Assembly: GCA_028821475.1 (NCBI GenBank)
Contig: JAPPGB010000171.1
Coordinates: forward strand, 76,727-140,726
Source: Spirochaetaceae bacterium
GTDB lineage: Bacteria > Spirochaetota > Spirochaetia > SZUA-6 > Bin103
DNA: 64,000 nt
Reading direction: 5' to 3'
This document shows positions 26,756-46,196 of the stretch, one piece after another (positions within the stretch are counted from its first letter, which is position 1; each line of letters begins with the position of its first letter). A program made the position numbers and the translations under genes. A model generated the notes under the pieces. The model did no database searches, was not told the origin of the DNA, and saw only the letters and a list, made by a program, of their open reading frames with translations.

Positions 26756-28303
26756 ATGGCGGCGAAGCTCGACGTAATCACTCGTTGCCGGGGCTGGCAG
26801 CCGGTCGCGCTCCGGGCGCTTGTCGCAATGGCATGCATCGCGCTGGCCGGCTGCGGCGGCGGTCCGGGGAGTAGTCATCCGGATCTGACAGTGGCATCTC
26901 CGGAGGTGAGCGACGACCGCCCGGCCGCCGCGGCCCGCTTCACGTTCTCGGCCACGGTGCACAACGGCGGCCGCGGGACCGCGGCGGCGACCACGTTGCG
27001 CGTCTACCGTTCCAGGGATGCGACGGTCACGCGCTCCGACAAGGAGGTGGGCACCGCCGCGGTGACGGAACTGCCCGCCTCGGAGCGTGTCATCGTGCCA
27101 GTGGATCTGACCGCTCCGCCGAGTTCGGGCACGTACTACTACGGCGCCTGCGTCGATGCCCAGGACGGCGAATCCGACACCGCGAACAACTGTTCGGAAG
27201 CGGTCCCGGTCGTGGTGCCGGCAGCCCCGTTCCCGGACCTGGTGCTGGAGCCTCCCGAGGTGAGCGACGCCAGTCCGGCCACGGGGGACCGGTTTACGCT
27301 CTCGGTGAGGGTGCGCAACGCCGGCGGCACGACGGTGGTGGCGGTGGCGGTACGCTTCCATCGTTCGGCGGATCAGGCGATCACGCCTTCCGACCCGGTA
27401 GCAGGCACCGACACCATCGAGGATCTCGCGGCCGCGGGGACCCGCGTGGCATCGGTCGATCTGACCGCGCCGTCGCCTGCCGGGACCTACTACTACGGAG
27501 CTTGTGTGAATGCGGCGGACGGTCAATCCGACACGGCGAACAACTGTTCGGCGCCGGTACGTGTCACGGTGCGGGAGCCGCAGACCACGAGGCCGGATCT
27601 GGTGGTGGCCCATGAGGTGCGCACACTCAACGCGGTAGCGGGGAAGTATCTGCGGGTCTCGGCAGAGGTGTACAATGCCGGGGAGGCCACGGCGGCCGCG
27701 ACGCGGGCGGTCTTCTACCGTTCGACCGATTCGACGATCACGCGGTCCGACAAATTCATGGTCGCCGCAAGCGTGCCGGAGCTGGCGCCCTCGCGCCGCG
27801 TGCACGTGGCGGGGTCCACGTTGGCGCCCAAAACGCCCGGAACGTACTACTACGGTGCCTGCGTGGACGCGGTGGCGGGGGAGTCCGACACGACGAACAA
27901 CTGCCGGGCGACGCTGCAGGCCACGGTGCGGCTGGGGCCACCCGATCTGATGGTTATCGCACCCTCGCCCGCAAATCCCGCCAGTCCGGCCGCCGGCGGG
28001 CGGTTCTCTCTGCGGGTGGCGGTGCACAAGATCGGGGGGGAGCACGGAGCGGTTTCGCTCCGTTATTTTCGTTCGGGTGATGCCCAATTCACCTCGCCCG
28101 GCACGCAAGTCGGCTTCAAAGAGGTACCTGACATGGCTCCGTTCAGCGTCTTGAGCACATCGATGCACCTGGATGCGCCATCGAACAAGGGCACGTACTA
28201 CTACCGCGTGTGCGCGGACGCGGTGGCCGGGGAGACCGATACGACCAACAACTGCTCGTCGCCGGTGACAGTCGTGGTCTCGGACGCCAACCGGGCCGGG
28301 TAA
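26756..28303 (+). CDS. Lipoprotein with four CARDB repeats
   Basis: Predicted surface or periplasmic lipoprotein of 515 residues. After a basic N-terminus, VAMACIALAGC supplies a lipobox with Cys33. Four beta-sandwich repeats of about 115 residues (roughly 40-155, 160-275, 280-395, 398-510) each begin PDL and end in GTYYYGACVDAxxGESDTxNNC. This is the CARDB (cell-adhesion-related, APHP-like) signature, in which the Asp/Asn-rich end may bind calcium and the two Cys per repeat may form a disulphide. GGGAGGAG precedes the ATG. A longer paralogue follows directly downstream. Role probably adhesion or matrix binding; ligand unknown. Confidence 0.75.
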   Translation: MAAKLDVITRCRGWQPVALRALVAMACIALAGCGGGPGSSHPDLTVASPEVSDDRPAAAARFTFSATVHNGGRGTAAATTLRVYRSRDATVTRSDKEVGTAAVTELPASERVIVPVDLTAPPSSGTYYYGACVDAQDGESDTANNCSEAVPVVVPAAPFPDLVLEPPEVSDASPATGDRFTLSVRVRNAGGTTVVAVAVRFHRSADQAITPSDPVAGTDTIEDLAAAGTRVASVDLTAPSPAGTYYYGACVNAADGQSDTANNCSAPVRVTVREPQTTRPDLVVAHEVRTLNAVAGKYLRVSAEVYNAGEATAAATRAVFYRSTDSTITRSDKFMVAASVPELAPSRRVHVAGSTLAPKTPGTYYYGACVDAVAGESDTTNNCRATLQATVRLGPPDLMVIAPSPANPASPAAGGRFSLRVAVHKIGGEHGAVSLRYFRSGDAQFTSPGTQVGFKEVPDMAPFSVLSTSMHLDAPSNKGTYYYRVCADAVAGETDTTNNCSSPVTVVVSDANRAG

Positions 28304-28568
28304 CGAATCCAGCAGGCGTCGGGCCGCGCAGCGGCCGAAATAACGAACTCCTGATTTCCAGGTCAACGCGAATCAAGGTCCGAGCAAACTGTCGATGCAG
28401 CGCCCAGGCCCGTTCCACTACGGTGTTCCAGGCGAGAAGTCATGAGCACCAATGGATACCAACGCTTGCTTAACAACATGAATAGGATGTTGAAAAATAC
28501 CTGGAGCTATGAACCGACTACGTTTTCGTCCGACACCCCTGGTCAAGCGCCATGGGAGGAGACCGGGC

Positions 28569-30491
28569 ATGCCGGCGGGTCTCCACCAGGTCGCTCGTTG
28601 CCGGCGCTGGCAGCCGGAAGCGCGCCGCGTGCTTGTCGCGATGGCATGCATGGCGCTGGCGAGTTGCGGCCGCGGTCCGGGGGCCAGTCATCCGGACCTG
28701 ACAGTGGCATCTCCGGCGGTGAGCAACGACCGCCCGGCGGCCGGGGCGAGCTTCACGTTCACGGCCACGGTACACAACGCCGGCCGCGGGAACGCGGCGG
28801 CGACCACGTTGCGGGTCTACCGTTCCAAGGATGCGACGGTCACGACCTCCGACAAGGGGGTGGGCGCCGCCGCGGTTACGGAACTACCGGCCTCGGAGAG
28901 CGTCGACGTGACGGTAGAGCTGACCGCGCCGTCGAGTTCCGGCACGTACTACTACGGCGCCTGCGTCGATGCCCAGGACGGCGAATCCGACACCGCGAAC
29001 AACTGTTCTGAAGCGGTCCCGGTCATCGTGCAGGAGCCGGATGCGCCGGCAGCGCCGCTCCCGGACCTGGTGCTGGAACCTCCCGAGGTGAGCGACGCCG
29101 CCCCGGCCACCGGCGGCGAGTTTACGCTGTCGGTGAGGGTGCGCAACGCCGGCAGCGCGCCGGCGGCGGACACGGCGGTGCGCTTCCATCAGTCGACGGA
29201 CCAGGCGATCACGCCGTCCGACCCCGAAGTGGGCACCGACACCATCGCAACCCTCGCGGCCTCCGCCAGCCACGTCGCATCGGTGGACCTGACCGCGCCG
29301 TCGCTCCCCGGGACCTACTACTATGGAGCTTGCGTGAGTGCGGCGGACGATCAATCCGACACGGCGAACAACTGTTCGGCGTCCGTGCGGGTCACGGTGC
29401 CCCGGCCCCCACCCCCGGCCCCGCCGCAGATCGCGACGAGGAGGTCTCCGGGACCGGATCTTGAGGTGGAAGAGGATGAGTCCCATCTCGGGGGATCCAG
29501 TCTGATGGTGGGGTATGTGCGCAATTCCGGAGACAGGCGTTCGCCGTCGACGACGGTGCGCTTCTATCGGTCTACGGACTCGACGATCACGAGGTCCGGC
29601 TGGCAGGTAGGCAAGCTGGATTTGAAGGCGATCGAGCCCTCGCAGCGCGAGTACGTCGGGACGAACACGGAGACTCCCTACAATCCGGGGACGTACTACT
29701 ACAGCATTTGTGTGGACGTGGTCGCCGGCGAGACCGACACGACGAACAACTGCCGGATCACGCGCCAGATCACGGTGCCGCCACGGCCGCCACCGGACGT
29801 GACGGTTTCCATCCACTCCAAGGGACCGTATCCCGCCAGTCCGGCCATCGGAGGGCGGTTCGACCTGCCTGTCATAGTGAAAAACTCCGGGCGGGGAGCG
29901 GGGTTGGTGCCGCTGCGTTCTTACCGTTCGGATAGTGCGGAGTTCACGTCGCCCGGCACGGAGGTGGGCGTCCGAACGATCGACATGCCTGACGGCATCG
30001 GCGTCTCGAGCACAGGCAAGCACCTGGAAACGCCGTCAAGCAAAGGTACCTACTATTATCGCGTGTGCGCGGACGCGGTGGCCGAGGAGTCCGATACGTC
30101 CAACAACTGCTCGTCGCCGGTGAAGGTCGAGGTCTCGCACAGCAAACCGAACCTGGTGATCGCGTCTCTCAAGCGTTGGGTCTCGCAAGGCAAGTACGTG
30201 GTGATGGTCGTGGAGGTGGAGAACGTCGGGAGCCGCATCGACGAGGACGAGCGACGGCTGCGTTTCTACCGTTCGACGGATGCGACGATCACGACTTCCG
30301 ACACGCTGATCGGCGCCGTCAAGGAGAGTTGGACCTGGCCCTCGTCCAGGTTTGATTTCTTCACTGGCTTTACGACTATAACGATCCCGGATACGCCCGG
30401 GACGCACTACTTTGGCGCATGCGTGGACGTGCTTGCAGGCGAGCTCAACACGACGGACAACTGCTCGTGGTCGCTGCGGTTCCATAGGTGA
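28569..30491 (+). CDS. Lipoprotein with five CARDB repeats, paralogue of upstream gene
   Basis: About 640 residues, with lipobox VAMACMALASC and five CARDB units ending in GTYYYGACV, GTYYYSICV, GTYYYRVCA or GTHYFGACV. Units 1 and 2 are nearly the same as in the upstream paralogue; later units and a proline-rich linker (PRPPPPAPPQ) differ, so it arose by tandem duplication and unit gain. Start at 28569 was chosen over ATG 28509 because the GGGAGGAG ribosome site and the first codons align with those of the paralogue. It converges on the MacB-like permease gene of the efflux operon. Confidence 0.75.
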   Translation: MPAGLHQVARCRRWQPEARRVLVAMACMALASCGRGPGASHPDLTVASPAVSNDRPAAGASFTFTATVHNAGRGNAAATTLRVYRSKDATVTTSDKGVGAAAVTELPASESVDVTVELTAPSSSGTYYYGACVDAQDGESDTANNCSEAVPVIVQEPDAPAAPLPDLVLEPPEVSDAAPATGGEFTLSVRVRNAGSAPAADTAVRFHQSTDQAITPSDPEVGTDTIATLAASASHVASVDLTAPSLPGTYYYGACVSAADDQSDTANNCSASVRVTVPRPPPPAPPQIATRRSPGPDLEVEEDESHLGGSSLMVGYVRNSGDRRSPSTTVRFYRSTDSTITRSGWQVGKLDLKAIEPSQREYVGTNTETPYNPGTYYYSICVDVVAGETDTTNNCRITRQITVPPRPPPDVTVSIHSKGPYPASPAIGGRFDLPVIVKNSGRGAGLVPLRSYRSDSAEFTSPGTEVGVRTIDMPDGIGVSSTGKHLETPSSKGTYYYRVCADAVAEESDTSNNCSSPVKVEVSHSKPNLVIASLKRWVSQGKYVVMVVEVENVGSRIDEDERRLRFYRSTDATITTSDTLIGAVKESWTWPSSRFDFFTGFTTITIPDTPGTHYFGACVDVLAGELNTTDNCSWSLRFHR

Positions 30492-30639
30492 GCGGCCGAT
30501 GCCGCCCGGCCCCGAGGGGTCGCCGGCGACTGTCGATCCGTCGCAGACTCGCGCCGACGCCATGGCCCAGCCGGCATTTCGCACTCGCGCGCTACTGATT
30601 CCTCCGAATGGACCGCGCGCCGGCGGCTTGCTTCGGAGC

Positions 30640-31824
30640 CTACCCCGAGCGCAGCGCGGTGATCGGATCGAGCCGCGCCGCCTGGTGCGCCGGCTGCAGC
30701 CCGAAGAACACGCCGACACCACAGGCAACGACGAATCCCAACGTGGCGGCGGTCGGATCGACCATGAATTCCCACCCGGAGAACCGGCAGAAGATCCAGG
30801 TGCTGCCCACGCCGACCACGATGCCGAACACCCCGCCGACCAACGACAGGACGATGGACTCGGTCAGGAACTGGCTCTGGATGTCGAAACGGCGAGCGCC
30901 GAGGGCCCGCCTGATCCCGATTTCCGTGCGCCGCTCGGTCACCGAGACCAGCATCACGTTCATGACGCCGACTCCTCCGACGATCAGCGATATGCTGCCG
31001 ATCGCGGCCAGCAGCAGGGCGAACGTCTGCGCCTGGCGCTGCATCTGTTCGATCAGCCTCTGTGCGCTCTGCACGATGACCGACAGGCGCGGCGCCCTGC
31101 GCCGGAAGTACTCCCGCACCTCCGCGGTCGCCACGGTGTAGTGCGCGTCCGGCGTCATGCGGGCGCCGACCTGGTTCAATCCCTGCTGCGGGAACATGCG
31201 CTCGGCGGAGGAAAACGGAATCATGATCGCCCGGTCGGCGTCGAAGGGCTGCATGCCCCACCTCGGAGTGGCACGCAGCACGCCCACGATGGTGTAGATG
31301 CGATCGTTCAGCCTGATCGGTTCGCCGACCAGCGGTTCCGCGCCGGCGCGGCGCAGCGCCGAAGCCACTCGCGAGCCGACAACGCAATATTCGCGGCGCA
31401 CGTCCAGGTCCGAAATGGCCCGCCCGTCAGCGAGCGGCAGCCTGTTCATTTCAATGAACGACCCGGTCACCCCCAGGGTCGGGGCGTCCATGACCTTCTT
31501 CCCCGCGTACACGACCACCCCGAGGCCTTGGCTCCAGGGGGCTACCCCCGCGACCGACGGTGCTCCTTCCGGCAATCCGACCGCATCCGCCAGCGTCGTC
31601 CCCGATGCGCCCCCCGGTCCCAGGCCGTGCACCTGGATGGTGAGATAGTCGGTGCCGAGCTCCCGGAACTGTTCCAGGGCCTGCTGCTTGGCGATGGTTC
31701 CCACCGAGAGCATGGCGATGACCGAGCCGATGCCGATCACGATGCCGATCAGTGCCAGCAGGCTGCGCTGCTTCGCCGCGGAGAGGCTGACGACCGCTTC
31801 CTTGACGTTCGCCTTCAGCGCCAC
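30640..31824 (-). CDS. MacB-like ABC transporter permease (FtsX family)
   Basis: Inner-membrane subunit of 394 residues with MacB topology. One N-terminal helix (SLLALIGIVIGIGSVIAML) is followed by a periplasmic domain of about 210 residues. Three C-terminal helices include FALLLAAIGSISLIVGGVGV and the conserved MNVMLVSVTERRTEIGIRRA. MacB-type proteins do not pass substrate across the inner membrane; they use ATP hydrolysis to push periplasmic substrate into a TolC-type channel through an adaptor. All partners are in the same operon. It is the last gene, 62 bp after the ATPase, with the ATPase as a separate polypeptide as in MacB-related LolCDE-like systems. Confidence 0.87.
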   Translation of the reverse strand: MALKANVKEAVVSLSAAKQRSLLALIGIVIGIGSVIAMLSVGTIAKQQALEQFRELGTDYLTIQVHGLGPGGASGTTLADAVGLPEGAPSVAGVAPWSQGLGVVVYAGKKVMDAPTLGVTGSFIEMNRLPLADGRAISDLDVRREYCVVGSRVASALRRAGAEPLVGEPIRLNDRIYTIVGVLRATPRWGMQPFDADRAIMIPFSSAERMFPQQGLNQVGARMTPDAHYTVATAEVREYFRRRAPRLSVIVQSAQRLIEQMQRQAQTFALLLAAIGSISLIVGGVGVMNVMLVSVTERRTEIGIRRALGARRFDIQSQFLTESIVLSLVGGVFGIVVGVGSTWIFCRFSGWEFMVDPTAATLGFVVACGVGVFFGLQPAHQAARLDPITALRSG

Positions 31825-31886
31825 CGCGCCTCCCTCCTCCGTGCGACGACGGGCGGTTGGTCAGCGGCCAAGGGCGGCGGACCGGA

Positions 31887-32570
<684 letters not shown>

Positions 32571-32572
32571 CT

Positions 32573-34420
32573 TCAGTCGTCGCGGGCGTACGTCGTTTGG
32601 ATTGAAACCGTGCCCGTGGCCGTGTGGCCCTCGTCGTTGGTCATCGTCAGCGTCGCCGTGACCGTAAAGGGGCTGGGAGGCGGCTCGGCCAAGGCGTTCA
32701 GTTGCGCGGAGGTCTTGACGAACATCTGAAGCCTGCCATCGAGAATGCGGGAGAATCGAGCGACGTAGTAATCCAATGTAGAGAACTCCACCGCGGTGAA
32801 TCGCGCGTTCGTCCCCGGATTCTCGAACACCGATGGTGCGGAGGTGCCGGAAATGGCGCCGGGAGGTGCGTTGACTGGAGACAACCCTGGCATGACGGTC
32901 GGCGGACTGGTGCCCGCCAGCGGGGCGCCGGATGGGCGGGTGTACGTCGTTTCGAACGTGATCGTGCCTGAAGCCGTCTGGTCGTCGTCGTTGGTCATCG
33001 TCACCGTCGCCGTGACCGTAAAGGGGCTGGGAGGCGGCTCGGCCAAGGCGTTCAGTTCCGCGTCGGTCTTGGCATGCACATAGAGGTAGGTACCACGGTA
33101 TGCAACGCCCGTATTCTGGGTGCCGTAGTAGTCCATGGTCGAGAACACGGCGGCGGTTACTCTCGCGTTCGTCCCCCGGTTGGCGAAAATCTCGTCGATA
33201 CGCACGCGGCTCGTCACACCGGGAACTGCGCTGATGTTGGATGTCGCGATGAAGGTCGGCTGCGACTGCGCCGGCGCCGGCGGCGCGGCGGCGGTCCTGG
33301 GGTATGCCGTTCGGAGTGACCTCGTGGCCGTGGCCGTCTGGCCGTCGTCGTTGGTCATCGTCATCGTGGCCGTCACGGTAAAGGGGCTCGGTGGCGGCAC
33401 AGCCAGGGCGTTCAGTTGGGCGGCGGTCTTGGCCTTCACGAACAGGTAGCTCCCATCCGCATTCAGGCCGGTGAGCGCTGCGTCGTAGTAATCCATGGTG
33501 GAGAACGTCACGGCGGTGAATCTCGGGTTCGTCCCCACGTTGTCGAACGTCGAGTCGGGGGAGGTGCTGACCCGAACGCCGGCCGGTACGTTGAGTGGTT
33601 GGGTCGATGCGGCCACCGGCACCGCCGCGGGCGGGTCGCTTGACGGCGGAGGCGACGAGGCGGCCCTGGCGTACGTCGTTTGGAGTGACCTCGTGGCCGT
33701 GGCCGTCTGGCCGGCGTCGTTGGTCATGGTCATCGTGGCCGTCACGGTAAAGGGGCTCGGAGGCGGCACAGCCAAGGCGTTCAGTTGCGCGGCGGTCTTG
33801 GCCCTCACAAACAGGTAGCTCCCATCCGCGTTGAGTCCGGTAAGCGCTGCGTCGTAGTAATCCATGGTGGAGAACGTCACGGCGGTGAATCTCGGGTTCG
33901 TCCCCACGTTGTCGAACGTCGAGTCGGGGGAGGTGCTGACCCGAACGCCGGCCGGTACGTTGAGTGGTTGGGTCGATGCGGCCACCGGCACCGCCGCGGG
34001 CGGGTCGCTTGACGGCGGAGGCGACGAGGCGGCCCTGGCGTACGTCGTTCGGAGTGACCTCGTGGCCGTGGCCGTCTGGCCGTCGTCGTTGGTCATCGTC
34101 ATCGTGGCCGTCACGGTAAAGGGGCTCGGTGGCGGCACAGCCAGGGCGTTCAGTTGGGCGGCGGTCTTGGCCTTCACGAACAGGTAGCTCCCATCCGCAT
34201 TCAGGCCGGTGAGCGCTGCGTCGTAGTAATCCATGGTGGAGAACGTCACGGCGGTGAATCTCGGGTTCGTCCCCACGTTGTCGAACGTCGAGTCAGGGGA
34301 GGTGCTGACCCGAACGCCGGCCGGCACGTTGAGCGGTTGGGTCGATGCGGCCACCGGCACCGCGTCGGCAGGTGCGCCGCTCAGCAACCATACGGTCGCC
34401 GCGGCGGCCACAAGCGCCAT
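32573..34420 (-). CDS. Secreted tandem-repeat protein within the efflux operon
   Basis: Unrecognised protein of about 615 residues. From ATG 34420 it starts with a clean Sec signal (MALVAAAATVWLLSGAPADA). Five repeats of about 123 residues follow, each with FxNxGTNxRFTAVxFSTMDYY, an AQLNALAxPPPSPFTVTA core and MTNDDGQTATxTxxxxTTY. Repeats 1-3 are almost identical; 4 and 5 are diverged. No Cys occurs in the repeats. The pattern looks like an Ig-type or cadherin-type beta-sandwich, but no family was recognised. The frame is open upstream to 34627, and ATG 34537 is an alternative start. It lies between the adaptor gene (16-bp gap to the open frame) and the ATPase (2-bp gap), so it is probably a substrate, chaperone or surface partner of the exporter. 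Confidence 0.65.
   Translation of the reverse strand: MALVAAAATVWLLSGAPADAVPVAASTQPLNVPAGVRVSTSPDSTFDNVGTNPRFTAVTFSTMDYYDAALTGLNADGSYLFVKAKTAAQLNALAVPPPSPFTVTATMTMTNDDGQTATATRSLRTTYARAASSPPPSSDPPAAVPVAASTQPLNVPAGVRVSTSPDSTFDNVGTNPRFTAVTFSTMDYYDAALTGLNADGSYLFVRAKTAAQLNALAVPPPSPFTVTATMTMTNDAGQTATATRSLQTTYARAASSPPPSSDPPAAVPVAASTQPLNVPAGVRVSTSPDSTFDNVGTNPRFTAVTFSTMDYYDAALTGLNADGSYLFVKAKTAAQLNALAVPPPSPFTVTATMTMTNDDGQTATATRSLRTAYPRTAAAPPAPAQSQPTFIATSNISAVPGVTSRVRIDEIFANRGTNARVTAAVFSTMDYYGTQNTGVAYRGTYLYVHAKTDAELNALAEPPPSPFTVTATVTMTNDDDQTASGTITFETTYTRPSGAPLAGTSPPTVMPGLSPVNAPPGAISGTSAPSVFENPGTNARFTAVEFSTLDYYVARFSRILDGRLQMFVKTSAQLNALAEPPPSPFTVTATLTMTNDEGHTATGTVSIQTTYARDD
33298..34404. repeat. Three near-identical 369-bp direct repeats
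   Basis: Tandem units with a period of exactly 369 bp; for example, the string CATCGTGGCC recurs at 33362, 33731 and 34100. They encode repeats 3, 2 and 1 of the secreted protein. The outer units share variants (GGTGGCGGCACAGCCAGGGC) absent from the middle unit (GGAGGCGGCACAGCCAAGGC), so the two outer copies are closer to each other than to their neighbour. Such long identical repeats favour copy-number change by recombination. Confidence 0.9.
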
Positions 34421-34478
34421 GGAACGGCGCCGACCCGCACGGCTCAGGGAGCCTGCGCTGCACCGCAGCAGGTCTAAA

Positions 34479-34521
34479 GCGAACACCCGGTCGAAATAAG
34501 GGAACAAGGCGAACACCCGGT
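34479..34521. repeat. 13-bp direct repeats in the leader of the repeat-protein gene
   Basis: GCGAACACCCGGT occurs at 34479-34491 and again at 34509-34521, exactly 30 bp apart. Both lie between the putative promoter at 34544-34572 and ATG 34420. They could be regulator half-sites spaced by about three helical turns, or simply encode the repeated RVFAL if the upstream start is used. Confidence 0.4.
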
Positions 34522-34543
34522 ATAGAAAAGAGCCCATGTAGCA

Positions 34544-34572
34544 AACGTAATGGAGCGGGCTATATCCGTCAA
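34544..34572 (-). promoter_or_regulatory. Possible internal promoter for the repeat-protein gene
   Basis: On the minus strand, TTGACG (34572-34567), 17 bases, TACGTT (34549-34544), just after the adaptor gene. It would allow separate, perhaps stronger, expression of the repeat protein and exporter ATPase genes. Confidence 0.35.
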
Positions 34573-34643
34573 CTTCCAGGATAATCGACACTGATTCGAT
34601 GCCCATGCGGGTCTGACCACGCCGCACCGTCTCATGCCGTTCT

Positions 34644-36479
34644 TCAGGATGCGGCGACGATCACCTCGTCGCCGGCCTTGAGACCGCGAACGATCTCCAC
34701 CTCGTACGTCGTCGTCTCGCCAACCTCCACCGGCACTTCCCGAGGCACGCCGCCGGCCGGGCTCCGCACGAGGACGCGGTAGTTTCCCGCGCTGCCCTGA
34801 ACGGCAGCCACGGGCACAAGCAGGACGGCGGGCTCGTCCCGGACAACGACGGTGACACTGGCTGACATTCCCAGCCGCACACGTGCGAGATGCGCTTCAC
34901 TGACGCGTTCGATGACCGCGGTCACGTCGAACGTCGGCACGGCGCTCGGTCCCGCACTTCGGGACTGCGGGGAGATTCGCACGATCCTGCCTTCGAATAC
35001 CAGGTCGGGGAAAGCATCGCCGCTGATCCTGACCGACTGCCCCGGCTGTACTTTCACCACATCCACTTCGTCGACACCGCCGCTGACGGACAGGCCGCGC
35101 AGGTCACCGATGCTCAGCAGGTAGCCGCCTTCGCTCACCAACTGGCCCGCGGCCAGCGGGCGCCCATCGCCGTCCTCCCCTGACCGCTGTCGGCCGTCGC
35201 CGCCGGATTGCAGGACCACGCCGGACACCGGCGCCACGATCGTCGCGCTTTGCAGCGCTCTCTCCATCTCCCGCATGCCGGTGGCAGCGGTCTCCAGCCT
35301 GAGCCGGGCGATCTGCACCACGTCCGCGCCGCCCTTGGCGCGCGTCTCCTCCAGGTCGCGCAGTGCCGCCTCGTGTCTCAGGCGCTGGCCCTCGTATTGC
35401 CGCTCCGCGGCCGCGAACTCGGATGCCGGGATTATCCCCTGCTCCAGCAGCACCGCGGAGGCGGTGCGAGCGCCCGCGAGCGTCTCCAGCTCCATACCGG
35501 CCAGCGCCACGGCTTGCCGGGCTCGTGTGACTTCCGGGCCGTTCTCCCAATTCTCGATCTCCCGGAGCCTGTCCCGGGCCTCCAGGTATCGTGCCGAGGC
35601 CTCGAGGTATCGGCGATTGAAATCGGCGACGTCCAACTGGACCAGCGGCTGGCCCGCCACCACCAGGTCGCCGTACTCGAAGAACACACCCGCCACCTTG
35701 CCGGCGGACGGACTGCTTACCTGCCGTTCCTCGCGCGGCGCGAGTGTTCCGACGAACGAGAGGGTTCTGATCAGCCGGCGCGGCGCGACGGTCACGGTCG
35801 TCGCCTCCGCGGGCGCCGCGGACGCGCGCGAAGCTGCCGCCGGGAGCGCCGTTCCCATCTCGTTCCAGACGTACCACGCTGCGCCCGAGAAGAGCACGAC
35901 GACCAGCAGTACGGCGAGCACCCGTACCGCCTGCACCTTTTTCAGGGCCGAATCCAGCGCCGTGTTCTTTTCCTCGATCTCACGAAACGCGTCTCGGAGT
36001 GCGACGTTCTGCGTCCTGGTCGACTCCAGCAGCTCCTGCTCGGCCTGACGCAGCGCCTGCACTTCGGTGACATCGTCCAGGACTGCGACGATGCCGATTC
36101 TCTCCATCGCCCGGTCCTTGCGGCTGACGAGGTACGATGTCGTCACGTCGACGGACCGCTCCGCGTCTTCCCCGAGGCGCAGGCTGACCGTCGACCGCGA
36201 ACCGACCGCGTGGTCGTAGACCGCCGCCAGCACGGTGTCGTTGAATTCCTCCAGACCGTCGCGCTCCAGGAAGACCTCGCCGAACGGCTTGCCCCGGACC
36301 TTCTCCCCGGCCAACCCAAGCAACCGCAGGGCGGCCGGATTCAGGATCCCGACGCGGCCGTCGGCGGTGACGGTCATGACGCCCTCGGTCATGCTCTCCA
36401 GCACGTTGCGGTGCAGCAGGAAGTCGCGTTCGACCTCCGCGTCGCTCCGTATCGGAAGATTCGACGCGACGTCGGTCAC
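34644..36479 (-). CDS. PAS-domain/HlyD-type membrane fusion protein chimera (MacA-like adaptor)
   Basis: Unusual fusion of 611 residues. Residues about 20-140 form a cytoplasmic PAS domain (VLESMTEGVMTVTADGRVGI, LNPAALRLLGLAGEKVRGKP, then VAVLDDVTEVQALRQAEQEL). A coiled coil (140-185) and one transmembrane helix (VLAVLLVVVLFSGAAWYVW) follow. From about 230 comes a periplasmic adaptor: lipoyl half GTLAPREERQVSSPSAGKV, long hairpin coiled coil, second half SATIVAPVSGVVLQSGG, and beta-barrel and membrane-proximal domains. Adaptors normally link an ABC or RND pump to TolC and lack PAS. Start GTG 36479 overlaps the TolC-like stop as GTGA, so the two are coupled. The PAS may gate assembly or activity, or receive a redox or ligand signal. 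Confidence 0.8.
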   Translation of the reverse strand: MTDVASNLPIRSDAEVERDFLLHRNVLESMTEGVMTVTADGRVGILNPAALRLLGLAGEKVRGKPFGEVFLERDGLEEFNDTVLAAVYDHAVGSRSTVSLRLGEDAERSVDVTTSYLVSRKDRAMERIGIVAVLDDVTEVQALRQAEQELLESTRTQNVALRDAFREIEEKNTALDSALKKVQAVRVLAVLLVVVLFSGAAWYVWNEMGTALPAAASRASAAPAEATTVTVAPRRLIRTLSFVGTLAPREERQVSSPSAGKVAGVFFEYGDLVVAGQPLVQLDVADFNRRYLEASARYLEARDRLREIENWENGPEVTRARQAVALAGMELETLAGARTASAVLLEQGIIPASEFAAAERQYEGQRLRHEAALRDLEETRAKGGADVVQIARLRLETAATGMREMERALQSATIVAPVSGVVLQSGGDGRQRSGEDGDGRPLAAGQLVSEGGYLLSIGDLRGLSVSGGVDEVDVVKVQPGQSVRISGDAFPDLVFEGRIVRISPQSRSAGPSAVPTFDVTAVIERVSEAHLARVRLGMSASVTVVVRDEPAVLLVPVAAVQGSAGNYRVLVRSPAGGVPREVPVEVGETTTYEVEIVRGLKAGDEVIVAAS

Positions 36480-37963
36480 GCTTCCACCTCGCCGCGGGCT
36501 GCCAGGTCGATGTCGATCCGCCATGTGTCCAGCGTGGTCCCGAGCGTGAGGTCGAGCGCTGTCAAGGCGTTCAGATACGCAAGGATCGCGTCGAGTTCTC
36601 TAGTCTGGTTTCGCACCAGGTCGTCCTCGACCGCAACCACCCGAAAGTTGCTCGACAGGCCGGAATCCAACTTCAACCGTTCGATCTCCAACGCTCGTTC
36701 GGCAAGCCTCCTCGACTGCCGGGCCAACTCGATACGCCGGAACTGCACCTCTGCCTCGCGCACGGCGGTGCGCACCTCCAGTTCGATGCCCTGGCGCAGT
36801 TCCCGGAACTGCAACCGGGACTTCTGCAAGGCGATTTCGGCCTTCCGCCAGTTCCGCCGCTGGGCGTCACTGTCCGCGCCCAGCGGGATACGCAGACGGA
36901 GCCCGGTCCGGTAGTCGCCGTCGAACCGGCCGTACGCTTCTGCCAGCGAGCGGCCGTCGTGCCCGAAGCGCGCGGAGGCGGTAAGGTCCAGCTCCCACTT
37001 GCGCGCGTTGTCGGCGACCAGCAGACCGGTGTTCGCGTTTTCGATGGCCAGCGCGGCCTGGAGATAGTCGGGGCGGTTTTGCAGGGCCAGTTGCACGGCT
37101 CGATCGGCGTCGTGCTCCTTTCGCTCGACCCGCAGCTTTTCCGTGGGACGGATCCGGCTGCGGCTGTCGACATCCAGAATGGCAATCAGGGCAAGACGGG
37201 CGTCATCCAGCGCGCCGTGCGCCTCGGTCAGGCTCAACTCGCGCTCCGCGATGGTTGCTTCGGTCTGGACGATGTCCTGCTCGGCCATTCTGCCGCTCGC
37301 GATCAGGATCCGATTCACCGCCAGCAGGTCACGCGCCCGCTGGAGGGAGTGTTCCGCGATCTCCACCTCGCGCCGCGACCTGCTCACCTTCCGGTATGCG
37401 TAGATGGTGGCGGTGACGAGCCTCATGACCGTCGACCTGAAGACGAGGACGCCGGCATCTTCCGTGCGCCGGGCTCTTACCACGCCGGCGTTGCCGACCG
37501 CGACTCCCGCCCCTTTCAGAAACGGCTGCACGAAGTCCAGCTCGACGAACTGTGACGCGGTGTCCCGATCCGTAACCGTACTGTTCGCGCGGAGTCGGAA
37601 CGTCCCGCCGGTGGGGACCCGCAGCGTCACGCTCGGAGACACGTCGAGCGTGGAGGTGGTCAAGTTGCGGTCCGCGGAAACGGCGAACGCGGCAGCGAGG
37701 CGAAACTCGTCCTCGGCGTCCTCCAGGGACAGCCGCCCGGCGAGCCGGTCCAGGCGGGCGGCGGCGAGGTCGCGATTGTTGCGGAGGGCCAGCATGACGC
37801 ACTCGGCGAGCGTCAACGCAAGTTCGGGCGCAGTGCTCGACGCGGTTTCCGCCGCGGCCGGCCACGCCGTCAAGGCCGCCACTGCCAGGAGGGAACCCCA
37901 CCGCCGGGCACCGCAACGACCGGTGGCCCGCCGGCGCCGGCCACGGTTGTCATGGCGGAACAC
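36476..37963 (-). CDS. TolC-like outer-membrane efflux protein
   Basis: Trimeric outer-membrane channel subunit, about 495 residues. A signal segment (WGSLLAVAALTAWPAAA) is followed by two structural repeats rich in amphipathic helix, including LALTLAECVMLALRNNRDLA, VELDFVQPFLKGAGVAVGNA and, in the second half, AVQLALQNRPDYLQAALAIE with LRLRIPLGADSDAQRRNW. These are the paired OEP domains. Start is uncertain: GTG 37963 gives a basic n-region just before the signal, while ATG 38083 and a further upstream codon (38155) are in frame. It is first in the operon with the PAS-adaptor, repeat protein, ATPase and permease. A possible TTGACA lies at 38196-38191. Confidence 0.82.
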   Translation of the reverse strand: MFRHDNRGRRRRATGRCGARRWGSLLAVAALTAWPAAAETASSTAPELALTLAECVMLALRNNRDLAAARLDRLAGRLSLEDAEDEFRLAAAFAVSADRNLTTSTLDVSPSVTLRVPTGGTFRLRANSTVTDRDTASQFVELDFVQPFLKGAGVAVGNAGVVRARRTEDAGVLVFRSTVMRLVTATIYAYRKVSRSRREVEIAEHSLQRARDLLAVNRILIASGRMAEQDIVQTEATIAERELSLTEAHGALDDARLALIAILDVDSRSRIRPTEKLRVERKEHDADRAVQLALQNRPDYLQAALAIENANTGLLVADNARKWELDLTASARFGHDGRSLAEAYGRFDGDYRTGLRLRIPLGADSDAQRRNWRKAEIALQKSRLQFRELRQGIELEVRTAVREAEVQFRRIELARQSRRLAERALEIERLKLDSGLSSNFRVVAVEDDLVRNQTRELDAILAYLNALTALDLTLGTTLDTWRIDIDLAARGEVEA

Positions 37964-38514
37964 GGTGTCCACGTCTGCTCCCGCGCCCGGTAACGGCACC
38001 CGGCTCGGGGCCCGCCAGAGGACTCGTCTTGCGAACGACGCGCTACGGCCTGCGAATGCTTCCCTGCTTCCGTATGTCTTCATGTACACGTGGCAACGAA
38101 CAATCGGCGGATACACGGTCCGGTGATCCGCTGATTCCGTGTAAACTTCCCTCAACTCGGGCGGCTAATCTGCACGCCTGTTGCGGACGGTGTCAAGCCG
38201 AAGACGGAGCAACTCTTCGCATCATAACGATATGAAACGCTGGAGATTTGTATACTATATGGATACTCCCGAGGGGAGTGGGGCTTTCCGAGGCGGAATG
38301 GTGCGGGTGCGCGGCGGCGTCTCTCCGGTGTTCAACGGCTGCGCGGGCGCAGAATCCCGTCGCACCGCGTCACGTGTTAGAGTGGCGGCGCGATGCTCCG
38401 GCGCGCGCCGTGTGCGCCTCCCGGACGACGCGCGGCGCCGGTACGCCCGCCACGGAGCCCGGCGGTGCGCAGCGCCTCACCGGCGGCCGAGCGCACGCCG
38501 GCGCAATCCGGAGG
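37964..38514. other. Region upstream of the efflux operon
   Basis: Between the TolC-like gene (leftward) and the cupin stop. A perfect minus-strand TTGACA at 38196-38191 has only a poor -10 (GCAGAT at 17 bases), so the operon promoter is tentative. The 38220-38275 stretch is AT-rich with GTATACTATATGGATAC. No further gene was recognised; in-frame upstream codons of the TolC-like gene reach 38155. Confidence 0.4.
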
Positions 38515-38919
38515 TCAGGTGCGCAACTCGCTCCAGGGGGACTGCTCGTGTACTTCCACCAGTTCGTAGCCCTCGGCACCGATACAGGGGCCAAGGATGG
38601 CCAGTACCTTTGCCGGCGCATCGGAGACGTTGAACGACGCGTGCACCATGGCGGCCGGGATGAACGCGGAATCGCCCGCCCGCAGCGTCTGCTTGCGCTG
38701 GTCGACCCACTGCTCGATCTCGCCGTCGAGCACGTAGATCACCTCTTCCTGGTTGGGGTGGCGGTGAAAATTGTGCCCCCCGCCCGGGTCGAGCTTCACC
38801 TCGATCACCACGAGCTGTTCGGCAGCGGTGGTTTCGGGACGGCTGTGCCAACCGAGTTCGAAACCCTCCATCGCATCGCGCTTCACCTCGTCGCGCGCAA
38901 AGAACTGACCTTGACTCAT
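38515..38919 (-). CDS. Small cupin-domain protein
   Basis: Single-domain cupin of 134 residues. Motif 1 is visible as GGGHNFHRHPNQEEVIYVLDG (two His, a Glu and the conserved Gly) and motif 2 as AGDSAFIPAAMVHASFN (final His), giving a likely metal site. Such small cupins bind or isomerise small molecules, or serve as dioxygenases; the reaction is not deducible. Start ATG 38919 gives MSQGQFFARDEV; the open frame continues upstream without a better start. It is divergent from the MFS carrier gene, with 62 bp between starts, suggesting shared regulation. Confidence 0.8.
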   Translation of the reverse strand: MSQGQFFARDEVKRDAMEGFELGWHSRPETTAAEQLVVIEVKLDPGGGHNFHRHPNQEEVIYVLDGEIEQWVDQRKQTLRAGDSAFIPAAMVHASFNVSDAPAKVLAILGPCIGAEGYELVEVHEQSPWSELRT

Positions 38920-43102: not shown

Positions 43103-43909
43103 TCAGGCGGGACGCAGTATGGTGAAGTCGCTGTCCTTGCCGGCCCCGGCGGCGGCATCCATGTAGGTGAGGATGAACGCCCGGCGGTGGCCGGCGGTGT
43201 GGTTGCCGAGCGAGGAGTGGAAGATCTTGTTGGAGAACAGCGCCGCGGTGCCGGCGGGTATCTCGCAGTACACGGTGTTGCGCAGCTCGCGCTCGCCGGG
43301 CAGGAAGCTGAGCCGGCAGGCGCCGTGGTCGCGGGAAGAACGCGGCTGGTGCGGAATAATGTGCCGGCGGTGACTGCCGGGCACGACGCGCAGGCAGCCG
43401 TTGCGGCGGTGCGTGTCCTGCAGCGGCAGCCAGATCGACATGCGCCGCTCGCTGGCGCCGTAGATGTGCCAGTACGCCTCGTCCTGGTGCCAATGGCACA
43501 CGTTGTGCGGCTCGTGTGGACCCTTGGAGATCAGCTTCGCCGAGAACAGGGCCAGGCCGGGGTACACCAGGTCTTCGACCAGGCCGAGGATGCGAGGGTC
43601 GCACGCCAGCCGGCGGGAGTTCTCGGAGTCGGTGCCGAGCTGGTGGACCTGGTTGCGCCGCTGGTCGTCGGCCGCGATCGCCGGATCGGCGAGCCGTTCC
43701 CGGTAGCCGGCCTCGAATTCGGCGTCGAGCGCGGCCAACTCCGGCACCGGCAGGACATCAGGCACCACGAGGTAGCCCTGCCGGGCGAATTCGGCTCGCT
43801 GTTCGGCGGAGAGCCGGCCTGACGAGCGCGACCGCGGCCGAGCCGTGACGCCGGCGGTACCGGGTGCGTCGCTGGCCAGCGTCCCCGTGGGTGGATGGCG
43901 AAGCGTCAT
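43103..43909 (-). CDS. Phytanoyl-CoA dioxygenase family protein (2)
   Basis: Fe(II)/2-oxoglutarate oxygenase of 268 residues. The iron ligands are in VCHWHQDEAYW (His, Asp) and KIFHSSLGN (second His), with HRRAFILTYM supplying the Arg for 2-oxoglutarate. DTHRRNGCLRVVPGSHRRH is the family middle motif. Its ATG overlaps the stop of the preceding oxygenase gene as ATGA, so the two are translationally coupled and probably act in the same pathway or as a heteromer. The first 35 residues are low-complexity and may be dispensable. Confidence 0.87.
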   Translation of the reverse strand: MTLRHPPTGTLASDAPGTAGVTARPRSRSSGRLSAEQRAEFARQGYLVVPDVLPVPELAALDAEFEAGYRERLADPAIAADDQRRNQVHQLGTDSENSRRLACDPRILGLVEDLVYPGLALFSAKLISKGPHEPHNVCHWHQDEAYWHIYGASERRMSIWLPLQDTHRRNGCLRVVPGSHRRHIIPHQPRSSRDHGACRLSFLPGERELRNTVYCEIPAGTAALFSNKIFHSSLGNHTAGHRRAFILTYMDAAAGAGKDSDFTILRPA

Positions 43910-44853
43910 GCCTTGGCGCGGGCGGCGGTCTCTGTCTCCCGTGTGTTCCGGACGGAACGTGCGTTTTGCTCGCGCTGTTGCAGCATGGCGTCCCGCCACT
44001 CCTCCCAGGAAGGGATGGCGGATGCGCTGAGCACCGGGAGCGGCACCCGTCCATTGGCCCGCTGGCGCTTGCCGAATTCCTCCATGGCGTCCCGTTCCGG
44101 TCCGTCGAGCGCCTCTGCCGTGACGTGGAAGCGAAAGTCGATGCTCCAGCGCGCATCCCTGGTGCGGTTCATCTTGCTGGCGTGGAAGGTGAGGTTGGTC
44201 ATGTACAGCACGTCGCCGGCCGCCATCTCGAGGGCCACCGGCGTGCCGCGCTGCTCGATCTCCTCGTTGGTGCGCACGTTCATGTCCTCGCCGCGCGCGG
44301 CGTCCACCAGTCCCCAGCGGTGGCTGCCCGGCATCACCCAGATGCAACCGTTGGCTATGGTGGCATCGACCAGCGGAACCCACACGGTGACGATGTGCGC
44401 CGCCTCGGTACGGCCGACCCGCCTGCCGCGCGCCGGCTCATTGTAGTAGTGGCTGTCCTGGTGCCACGGGAATGCGGTGATTTCGGCTTCCGGAATCTTG
44501 GTACGGATGTTCAGTCCTCCGAGTTCGCTCACCTCCGGCCCCAGGATCGCGCCCACCACCCGCACGATGCCGGGATGGCGGAACAGGTCGAAGTACGCCT
44601 TGTCGAGGGTGTTCCCGATCCATCCGCGCGGCGAGCTGTCCATCGCCGTGCAAATCGCCGCGAACCTTCGCGTGAACGGTTCATCCTCGAACAGCGAGTC
44701 GATATTGCCCTCGGCATGCATCTTGCGCGCGTACTCGTCGACCTGGCCGGCAAGAAGGCGGCGCGCCGGATCGAGATCGGCGGCGCTCAGCACATCCCGA
44801 TCGATCAGGTAGCCGTCGCGCTCGTAGGCGGTGCGAACTGCAGCATCACTCAT
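43906..44853 (-). CDS. Phytanoyl-CoA dioxygenase family protein (3)
   Basis: Fe(II)/2-oxoglutarate oxygenase of 315 residues. FPWHQDSHYYNE gives His and Asp, LTFHASKMNRT the distal His, and DARWSIDFRFH the Arg for 2-oxoglutarate. It starts MSDAAVRTAYERDGYLIDRD, the normal family beginning, at ATG 44853; an upstream in-frame ATG at 44904 is less likely. Compared with its coupled neighbour it has an extra C-terminal 40 residues (EEWRDAMLQQREQNARSVRN). It is first gene of the two-oxygenase operon, divergent from the sialidase genes by about 180 bp. Confidence 0.87.
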   Translation of the reverse strand: MSDAAVRTAYERDGYLIDRDVLSAADLDPARRLLAGQVDEYARKMHAEGNIDSLFEDEPFTRRFAAICTAMDSSPRGWIGNTLDKAYFDLFRHPGIVRVVGAILGPEVSELGGLNIRTKIPEAEITAFPWHQDSHYYNEPARGRRVGRTEAAHIVTVWVPLVDATIANGCIWVMPGSHRWGLVDAARGEDMNVRTNEEIEQRGTPVALEMAAGDVLYMTNLTFHASKMNRTRDARWSIDFRFHVTAEALDGPERDAMEEFGKRQRANGRVPLPVLSASAIPSWEEWRDAMLQQREQNARSVRNTRETETAARAKA

Positions 44854-44995
44854 GGCTGTCACCATACTTCCGGCGCCGCGTCCGAGCAACCGCCGGATGC
44901 TCATGGCGTATATTGCTCACCGGGCAGCGCCAAGAACAGTGGACGGGAGCGCGCTGCGGAAGGCCCCGCGGGCGGGCGAGGCGGCGGACAGCGCT

Positions 44996-45025
44996 GTGAC
45001 AACGGGCGCGCGGGTGCGGTAGAGT
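44996..45025 (+). promoter_or_regulatory. Promoter of the sialidase gene pair (leaderless pattern)
   Basis: GTGACA (44996-45001), 18 bases, TAGAGT (45020-45025). The -10 box ends 6 bases before the GTG start at 45032, so transcription would begin at or next to the start codon, giving a leaderless mRNA. No Shine-Dalgarno sequence is seen, consistent with this. Confidence 0.45.
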
Positions 45026-45031
45026 GCCGGC

Positions 45032-46183
45032 GTGCCACAGATCAGAGACCCCGAGTACATCCAGGTCCACAAGGATCCGGCGCACGCGACCAACCAGGTG
45101 AGCCTGGTGCAACTTGCAGCCGGCGAGCTGCTGCTCGGCTTCAACGAGGAACGCGGACCGGTCCATGCCGACAGCGGGCAGTCGTGCCTGATCAAGTCCG
45201 CCGACGGCGGGCGCACCTGGGATCCGGCGAGCAAGCGGGTGGTATGGCCGTGCACCGAACACGCCGGCAACTGGGACTGCGCCTTCGGCCAGCTCGCTGG
45301 CGGCGCCATCCTGATGCACACCAGGGTGTGCAGCTTCATCGACTCCGGTGGCGCCGGCGGAGGCGACGATCCGCAGGCGCTGCGCTCCCCCACCCTGCGC
45401 GCGGAGCGCCTGAAGCGGCAGACCGGCTACGCCCTGCTCACCTCGCGCGACGACGGCGACACCTGGTCAGGCCCGGTGGAGGTGAACACCTTCCCGATCA
45501 CCTCCGCGTCTCTCGGCCGCTACGCGTGCGGCAACTCCGGCGCCGGCCACGTGATCGAGTTGCCCGACGGCGTCGTCCTGATGCCGCTGTGCGGAACGAT
45601 CAGCAACAACGACACCACCGGACCGGTGGGTGAAACCGGACGCAGCTTCCTGCTGCGTTCCGACGACGGCGGCGGCCACTGGGAGTACTGGTCCACCATC
45701 GCCTACGATCCGGCGCACATCATCCACTTTCACGAGCCGGGCGTGACCCGGCTGCGCGATGGCCGCCTGATCGCCCTGCTGCGGGTGTCGCGGCGCCCGG
45801 GCCGCTACGACAACCTGTGGTTCGCCTGCTCGGAGGACGACGGCGCAAGCTGGAGTCCGCCGCGGCGCACCAACATCTGGGGCTACCCGGCCGACATCAC
45901 GCAGCTCCGGGACGGCCGCGTGCTGGCGGTGTACGGTTACCGGCGCCCGCCCTGGGGGGTGCGCGGCTGCGTGTCCGCGGACGGCGTGACCTGGGACGCG
46001 GCCAACGAGTTCGTGATCCGCGTAGGCGGTGCCGCCGATCCCGACGTGCCGTTCTACTGGCACATCGGCTACCCGAGCGTCGCGCAGACCCCGGACGGCA
46101 CCATCGTCGCCGCCTACCACGAGTACAGCGACGATCGGCAGCCGGTGCAGTTCATCTGCTGCACCCGCTTCCACCTGGATTGA
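45032..46183 (+). CDS. Asp-box (BNR) sialidase-like protein (1)
   Basis: Six-blade propeller protein of 383 residues with repeated Asp boxes: SADGGRTW, SRDDGDTW, SDDGGGHW and SEDDGASW. Asp boxes fold between blades in sialidases and related propellers. Catalytic residues of GH33 (Arg triad, Tyr, Glu, Asp) cannot be assigned with confidence, so it may be an exo-sialidase or another glycosidase or binding protein. No signal peptide. The GTG start has no ribosome site but a close promoter. A second member follows 14 bp downstream. Confidence 0.75.
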   Translation: MPQIRDPEYIQVHKDPAHATNQVSLVQLAAGELLLGFNEERGPVHADSGQSCLIKSADGGRTWDPASKRVVWPCTEHAGNWDCAFGQLAGGAILMHTRVCSFIDSGGAGGGDDPQALRSPTLRAERLKRQTGYALLTSRDDGDTWSGPVEVNTFPITSASLGRYACGNSGAGHVIELPDGVVLMPLCGTISNNDTTGPVGETGRSFLLRSDDGGGHWEYWSTIAYDPAHIIHFHEPGVTRLRDGRLIALLRVSRRPGRYDNLWFACSEDDGASWSPPRRTNIWGYPADITQLRDGRVLAVYGYRRPPWGVRGCVSADGVTWDAANEFVIRVGGAADPDVPFYWHIGYPSVAQTPDGTIVAAYHEYSDDRQPVQFICCTRFHLD

Positions 46184-46196
46184 GGAGCACCTGAAA

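Follow-up and report, generated by a model that had tools for sequence, protein, structure and literature searches.

Can the adaptor of a tripartite exporter carry its own cytoplasmic input, so that a single chain reaches from the inside of the cell to the periplasmic channel? The question is raised by a minus-strand gene (34644..36479) in the 64,000-nucleotide stretch of Spirochaetaceae DNA analysed here (the window). An earlier note on this gene had claimed that a PAS domain and a coiled coil precede a single membrane helix and a periplasmic adaptor, and had proposed that the protein relays a signal across the membrane. Translation gave a single frame of 611 residues and a stop, with a GTG start. 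Profile searches of the product, which the note had suggested, returned both halves above their cut-offs: Pfam PAS (PF00989) at residues 24-124 (E 3.8e-8; score 33.8 bits, cut-off 22.6 bits), with PAS_4 (E 2.5e-7) and the NCBIfam sensory_box family (TIGR00229, 30.4 bits against 22.9), and HlyD_D23 at residues 238-505 (E 8e-13), with HlyD_3 (E 2.9e-8) and the NCBIfam RND_mfp family (TIGR01730, 110.5 bits against 94.9). Hydropathy revealed one membrane segment, from residue 187.

All features are on the minus strand. The PAS domain spans residues 24-136 (36072..36410) and is followed by a coiled-coil signalling helix (residues 137-186, 35922..36071), the single membrane helix (approximately residues 187-205, 35865..35921; Kyte-Doolittle mean of 2.33 over 19 residues) and a periplasmic adaptor part with lipoyl, alpha-hairpin, barrel and membrane-proximal domains (residues 228-611, 34647..35798). 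The 15 residues preceding the membrane segment contain three K/R and the 15 after it one; across all 24 PAS-adaptors that we compared, the counts are 3-6 before and 0-2 after. Because of this positive-inside distribution we place the N-terminus and the PAS domain inside the cell. The AlphaFold model (mean pLDDT 77.2, pTM 0.44, 22-row alignment) shows a PAS fold up to residue 136, one unbroken helix from 138 to 198, and then the four adaptor domains; pLDDT falls mostly below 50 in the membrane segment and in residues 197-225, the linker. By Pfam, NCBIfam, hydropathy and AlphaFold, the order that had been claimed is correct and its coordinates are exact.

A sequencing error or a misassembly merging two genes could produce such a chain, and the note had named two observations that would overturn its claim, two separate genes in an independent assembly and failure of PAS in a profile search. 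Neither came true: PAS passed its cut-offs, the frame is open throughout in the window, and other, independent genomes and contigs carry the same fusion, among them G538 and G733, where it sits on single contigs of 5.34 and 5.46 Mb (the two of the 24 above 5 Mb). Both PAS and HlyD_D23 were matched in 22 of the 22 family members scanned (E 0.001), and the PAS-adaptors form one group in the tree described below, with two PAS-less sisters inside it. We rule out an artefact, whose probability we regard as negligible.

The adaptor part resembles MacA. MacA is the best PDB match by sequence (E 1.9e-35) and also the best in Foldseek (9qgy_G, E 8.0e-24); in VIA-align the alignment to MacA covers 325 residues (Z 18.9, 11.1 Å), and RND adaptors reach equally high scores by this method (9j3d_D, for example, Z 19.1). 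The neighbouring genes indicate which kind of machine this adaptor belongs to. It is the second gene of a minus-strand operon with the order TolC, PAS-adaptor, repeat protein, ATPase, permease. The first gene encodes a TolC-type outer membrane channel (36476..38155; Pfam OEP E 1.5e-29, in two stretches), has an uncertain start (37999 by a codon-based gene call) and overlaps the start of the PAS-adaptor gene by 4 nt at its stop. Further downstream lie a LolD/MacB-type ABC ATPase (31887..32570; ABC_tran E 4.1e-35), in which the Walker A, signature and Walker B motifs are visible by eye, and, as a gene apart from it, a MacB-type permease (30640..31824; MacB_PCD E 4.5e-35, FtsX E 9.8e-20). The GC content of the operon is 0.66-0.68, and base composition does not single it out. 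A scan of 30000-38700 for promoters and terminators returned no more than shuffled sequences did, and no tRNAs were found in the window.

By NCBIfam equivalog cut-offs the system is not MacA/MacB proper: the adaptor scores 61.8 bits for MacA (NF008606, cut-off 342), the ATPase 234.5 and the permease 183 bits for MacB (NF007826, cut-off 966), and the ATPase also stays below the LolD equivalog cut-off (TIGR02211, 239.9 bits). The adaptor passes TIGR01730, an RND adaptor subfamily, but the genes that accompany it encode a LolD-type ATPase and a MacB-type permease and not an RND transporter. The features of a MacB-type tripartite system are present, namely a MacA-like adaptor with all four parts, a permease with MacB_PCD and FtsX, and a TolC gene. 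By its genes, the machine is a MacAB-TolC-like tripartite system.

The genes for TolC, PAS-adaptor, ATPase and permease are found together in most relatives. The exceptions are the second copy in L063 and the loci L064 and L073, where a permease is nearby and an ATPase or TolC match beside the adaptor is absent, and L041, L001 and L002, whose operons are incomplete or rearranged. Two sister adaptors without PAS (L079 and L080) keep the partner genes. In one locus that we picked for comparison on account of its cysteine-rich domains (L086, 3326-8060), genes for TolC, a LolD-type ATPase, DsbA and STAS proteins lie downstream of cysteine-rich domain genes, with no adaptor match.

Several known systems share parts of this arrangement. 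E. coli MacA-MacB-TolC has the same adaptor fold and related sequence, a MacB_PCD and FtsX permease, a LolD/MacB-type ATPase and a TolC partner, and is known to export a Sec-delivered disulfide-bonded peptide in two steps (PMC5985334). It differs in that the cytoplasmic end of MacA is short at most (according to a review of 2026, MacA has no cytoplasmic domain; PMC13328181), whereas approximately 185 residues of PAS and coiled coil stand there in our protein; in that MacB unites ATPase and permease in one chain; and in that TolC and a candidate cargo gene are part of the window operon. The Aat system (AatPABCD, exporting Aap/dispersin and CexE) likewise secretes a small Sec-exported protein in two steps with a split LolD-like ATPase, a LolC/E-like permease, an adaptor and an outer membrane protein (PMC7943197), but here the adaptor carries PAS, the cargo families are different, and no acyltransferase caught the eye at the loci. 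ATPase and permease genes are also split in the Gram-positive MacAB-like systems YknWXYZ and Spr0693-0694-0695, and in the latter, from pneumococcus, the adaptor controls the ATPase (PMC5985334, PMC5768738); both are without an outer membrane channel and no PAS has been described for them. In HlyD of type I secretion, a cytoplasmic segment at the N-terminus influences the recruitment of TolC and the HlyB ATPase (PMC4446572), yet this segment is a short helix and the exporter is of HlyB type, not MacB type. A literature search of open-licence PMC papers returned no description of a PAS domain fused to an adaptor. As far as this search goes, the system is set apart by its PAS input and by the cargo families linked to it; the machine itself is of the known MacB-type tripartite kind.

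Scanning contigs for the PAS-adaptor yielded seven loci, four of them full length (L001 64%, L002 57%, L003 and L004 36%). In whole-genome searches (E 1e-30) the best few candidates per genome were scored, so that the counts are lower bounds (the class search showed three of the six copies in G098). Matches were found in at least 6 of 14 genomes of the G098 family (15 full-length genes and one partial), at least 6 of 385 of its class, at least 4 of 244 of the G099 order (two spanning PAS and two the adaptor part only) and at least 1 of 296 in the phylum of the window, this one being the window genome itself. Among the matches listed for 98 relatives of the window genome, itself included, the only full-length one is its own; a second full-length copy there was considered and rejected, the three remaining matches being partial. 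Twenty-seven plasmid records match, none with 80% query coverage or more, and the 15 matches listed cover the adaptor part only. FlaA (PF04620), a spirochaete protein, is matched in 33 of the 41 relatives searched and in 0 of 14 controls, so that the lineage is probably spirochaetal; no match was found in the window genome (G000, 95.7% complete) or in G002 and G003 (one of the same genus and one of the same family), which perhaps reflects loss of flagella.

For the adaptor part we computed a maximum-likelihood tree by a quick method, without bootstraps, from 45 rows (24 PAS-adaptors, 2 PAS-less sisters and 19 other adaptors). The 24 and the 2 form one starred group of 26. The closest relatives of the window protein, with which it forms a starred group of four, come from an alphaproteobacterial MAG (L001), G103 (same family) and a gammaproteobacterial MAG (L002); since these lie in alpha- and gammaproteobacteria, horizontal transfer of the PAS-adaptor is likely. 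The PAS label needs two changes on the tree because L079 and L080 group with L076 and L077 (94% support, below the star), and the simplest reading would be a single fusion of PAS and adaptor followed by a later loss of PAS.

Does the cytoplasmic part look like a working input? Its fold aligns with the cytoplasmic PAS of CitA (5fq1_A) in VIA-align (Z 12.1, 109 residues, 3.3 Å). PAS histidine kinases such as WalK, CitA and ThkA have a similar PAS fold and sequence, but their output is a kinase, whereas here it is a periplasmic adaptor across the membrane. Mean pairwise identity in 21 rows is 0.489 for the coiled coil, 0.421 for the adaptor, 0.396 for PAS and 0.312 for the membrane helix, so that PAS is conserved about as well as the adaptor and the coiled coil better. 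dN/dS in PAS ranges from 0.17 to 0.51, below 1 in all pairs listed; PAS and coiled coil are under purifying selection. D136 and E139 are invariant in the family; we take them to be part of a DxT/E exit motif, which in kinases couples PAS with its helix.

The helix between PAS and membrane is of fixed length. The stretch that begins at the PAS-exit Asp (D136 in the window) and ends just ahead of the membrane helix is 51 residues long in 23 of 24 proteins, five of the 24 rows being near-copies (L003/L004; L062/L066/L070), and 44 in the remaining one (L001), exactly one heptad less; the offset from this Asp to an AYRxLE motif is likewise 28 in 23 of 24 and 21 in L001. The hydrophobic profile of residues 137-186 in 20 rows has a Fourier power of 56.3 at a period of 3.5, compared to 17.3 at 3.6 and 13.6 at 3.0, and the power at 3.5 was equalled by 1 of 5000 shuffles. 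A helix locked in register would tolerate a length change of exactly one heptad, and together with the fixed length this supports mechanical coupling. The earlier proposal of a relay therefore fared unequally. One chain leading from the cytoplasm to the periplasmic channel is borne out by the family-wide presence of PAS and coiled coil, the heptad-phased helix length and purifying selection; the relay of a signal stays a proposal, given a PAS fold with no conserved ligand residue and the PAS-less sisters in the same operon type. No His, Cys or Trp is conserved inside the fold in the 21-row alignment (just ahead of the fold, 11 of the 21 rows have His and 7 have Tyr at position 23), and because of this no known cofactor class is indicated; we rejected those classes.

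These last observations suit a different reading, in which PAS and coiled coil serve, without any ligand, to oligomerise the adaptor subunits on the cytoplasmic side, fixing assembly or stoichiometry and sensing nothing. PAS domains commonly dimerise, the coiled coil is the better conserved of the two, no cofactor residue is kept, and L079 and L080 do without PAS. Nevertheless, a plain coiled coil would suffice for that task, yet PAS is conserved nearly to the level of the adaptor, with dN/dS below 1, and the invariant D136 and E139 belong to the PAS-exit motif. We hold this oligomerisation reading to be possible but rather doubtful.

If the machine secretes proteins, its cargo may be encoded nearby. 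The third operon gene (32573..34420, minus strand) lies between adaptor and ATPase, has a Sec signal whose Met is at 34420 in a frame that opens at 34627, and stops 2 nt before the ATPase start. It encodes a candidate cargo of five units of approximately 108 residues, three of them 97-98% alike. At the DNA level a 369-bp tandem repeat (32973-34363, 2.9 copies, 95% matches) lies inside the gene, and the array is a very recent expansion. The repeat had no Pfam match above cut-off. It is present in 2 of 25 genomes, the window genome, with five copies all at the window operon, and G098, with six copies, four of them beside the PAS-adaptor in the L001 locus and two on another contig; 9 of the 11 copies are thus beside a PAS-adaptor gene. 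Two adjacent CARDB-repeat proteins (26756-30491, plus strand), 63-64% alike, converge on the export operon; we set them aside as cargo, as they are lipoprotein-like by eye and on the opposite strand. Elsewhere in the window (43103-47816) two phytanoyl-CoA dioxygenase-like genes are followed by two BNR-repeat (sialidase-like) genes.

In relatives, PAS-adaptor loci repeatedly contain genes for secreted proteins, which belong to several unrelated families: Calx-beta proteins at L003, L004, L062 and L070, small cysteine-containing secreted proteins before TolC at L077, and a secreted cysteine-rich domain of approximately 70-80 residues with the pattern C..xW..S.AS..C..C..C..C. In L076 no gene stood out as cargo. 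For the cysteine-rich domain a strict regular expression proved too narrow and gave chance wrong-frame matches, and we used a profile instead. This profile matched 13 of 23 PAS-adaptor loci, L068 weakly (E 6e-4). At L067 (6266-10328, minus strand) up to nine small, strongly diverged secreted cysteine-rich proteins stand in a row upstream of the PAS-adaptor operon.

Genome-wide, 58 copies were found in 8 of 25 genomes, 42 of them on PAS-adaptor contigs (G098 16/16, G103 11/17, G106 3/3, G107 3/7, G102 4/6, G643 3/3, G271 1/5 and G099 1/1) and 16 elsewhere; those of G098 are all confined to four of the five contigs carrying its PAS-adaptors. The domain occurs in 8 of 15 genomes with a PAS-adaptor and in 0 of 10 without a full match (Fisher one-sided 0.006), and counted per contig 12 of 26 are with a PAS-adaptor against 0.29 expected in proportion to contig size, an association that is inflated by profile seeds from beside PAS-adaptor genes in G098, G103, G102, G643 and G099. 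The genome-wide alignment also included copies beside PAS-adaptors in G106, G107 and G271, found with the seed profile, and because seeds and alignment drew on such neighbours every positive genome has at least one match by construction. Seven of the 15 PAS-adaptor genomes, that of the window included, have no copy.

Among the Pfam matches of 36 copies of this domain CVNH does not occur, even with E allowed up to 1, in a search whose HMMER filters drop weak matches; the PDB gave no match by sequence up to E 5. From the sequence pattern we had guessed a cyanovirin-N fold before any structure comparison. In VIA-align the top 12 rows for the predicted model (pLDDT 89.5, pTM 0.77) were all cyanovirin-N homologs, at Z 4.2-6.3, below 8, with the next row at 3.8 and the best (2pys_A) aligning 51 residues at 2.3 Å, while Foldseek returned nothing under E 0.001. 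The resemblance to a cyanovirin-N lectin fold is a lead, not an assignment. The literature search, in open-licence PMC papers, found no report of CVNH with MacB.

These neighbours bear on whether the system is instead a common efflux pump for drugs or small molecules whose adaptor is merely embellished, beside which secreted-protein genes are incidental. MacAB pumps do confer macrolide resistance (PMC5985334), and a substrate cannot be assigned from sequence alone. However, the recurrence of unrelated secreted-protein families, the complete confinement of the cysteine-rich copies of G098 to PAS-adaptor contigs, and a repeat gene inside the window operon make efflux unlikely. We consider the PAS-adaptor machine a probable protein secretion machine because of its LolD-type ATPase, MacB-type permease, TolC and linked secreted proteins, a setting that the earlier note had not reported, and gene neighbourhood supports the secreted proteins as candidate cargo.

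Other linked genes are found at fewer loci. DsbA genes occur in 5 of the 31 loci compared (L063, L065, L068, L073 and L086) with adjoining STAS genes, and STAS matches in 6, after DsbA in these five and as a single gene near L002. Near the exporter, the STAS genes beside DsbA are at L063 9882-10598 (a tandem STAS by Pfam), L065 9570-10274, L068 2423-3145 and L073 1852-2553. An MlaB-like control of the ATPase by these STAS proteins is conceivable by analogy. DCC1-like genes are present in L068, L075 and L086, and an HTTM/vitamin K-dependent gamma-carboxylase-like gene directly follows the permease in L068 (4518-6083) and L075 (8261-9844). The linked STAS genes could favour a signal running from outside inwards, with occupancy of the tube read through the helix and PAS, which would then bind a cytoplasmic partner such as STAS, the adaptor reporting secretion status. 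Given that STAS is missing at the window locus and at most relatives examined, we find this improbable.

We give roughly even chances to a MacAB-TolC-like two-step secretion machine for Sec-delivered, beta-rich cargo proteins in which PAS acts through the coiled coil on pump activity. Adaptor, TolC channel, LolD-type ATPase and MacB-type permease would form a tripartite machine from their own operon. Sec would bring the cargo, in the window the tandem-repeat protein, into the periplasm, where it would fold, in relatives with disulfides and in some aided by the linked DsbA. ATP-powered movement of the permease would then drive the cargo through the adaptor tube and TolC. The N-terminal PAS of each adaptor would be cytoplasmic and close to the ATPase, and PAS domains would pair, in a dimer and hexamer arrangement, their state depending on a ligand or on redox. 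This state could pass through the rigid, register-locked coiled coil to the membrane helix, and turn ATPase stimulation and assembly up or down.

Each end of this scheme has a parallel. The STII toxin passes through Sec, then DsbA and then MacAB-TolC, and without its cytoplasmic region or membrane helix MacA is compromised in stimulating the MacB ATPase (PMC5985334). In a Gram-positive system, stimulation of the ATPase by a MacA-like adaptor is lost when the TM segment is removed (PMC5768738), and HlyD without its N-terminal 45 residues fails at TolC recruitment and HlyB activation (PMC4446572). Because PAS stands exactly where the cytoplasmic end of MacA controls the ATPase, gating of the pump would be the most economical reading by analogy. 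The size of the candidate cargo in the window speaks against the secretion scheme: with approximately 600 residues the repeat protein is large, as folded substrates of MacB-type pumps have been suggested to be at most approximately 20 Å wide (PMC5985334). More tentatively, with a probability below that of the scheme above, we propose signal-gated secretion, in which PAS and a heptad-locked TM helix control the release of folded, Sec-delivered, beta-rich proteins.

How the cytoplasmic end of MacA, unresolved so far, controls the MacB ATPase has been stated to be an open question (PMC5985334), and a defined PAS domain on a coiled coil of fixed length offers a handle on it. The family also links a little-known secretion operon with a secreted cysteine-rich domain family that has no Pfam match. 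With the PAS-adaptor, an input domain may control protein secretion post-translationally, and through it the cell may switch export on or off. If the signal-gated reading is true, a cytoplasmic metabolite or redox cue would set the release of surface-active proteins at once, without transcription, and the proteins released would be cyanovirin-like lectin domains in many relatives and tandem-repeat proteins in the window.
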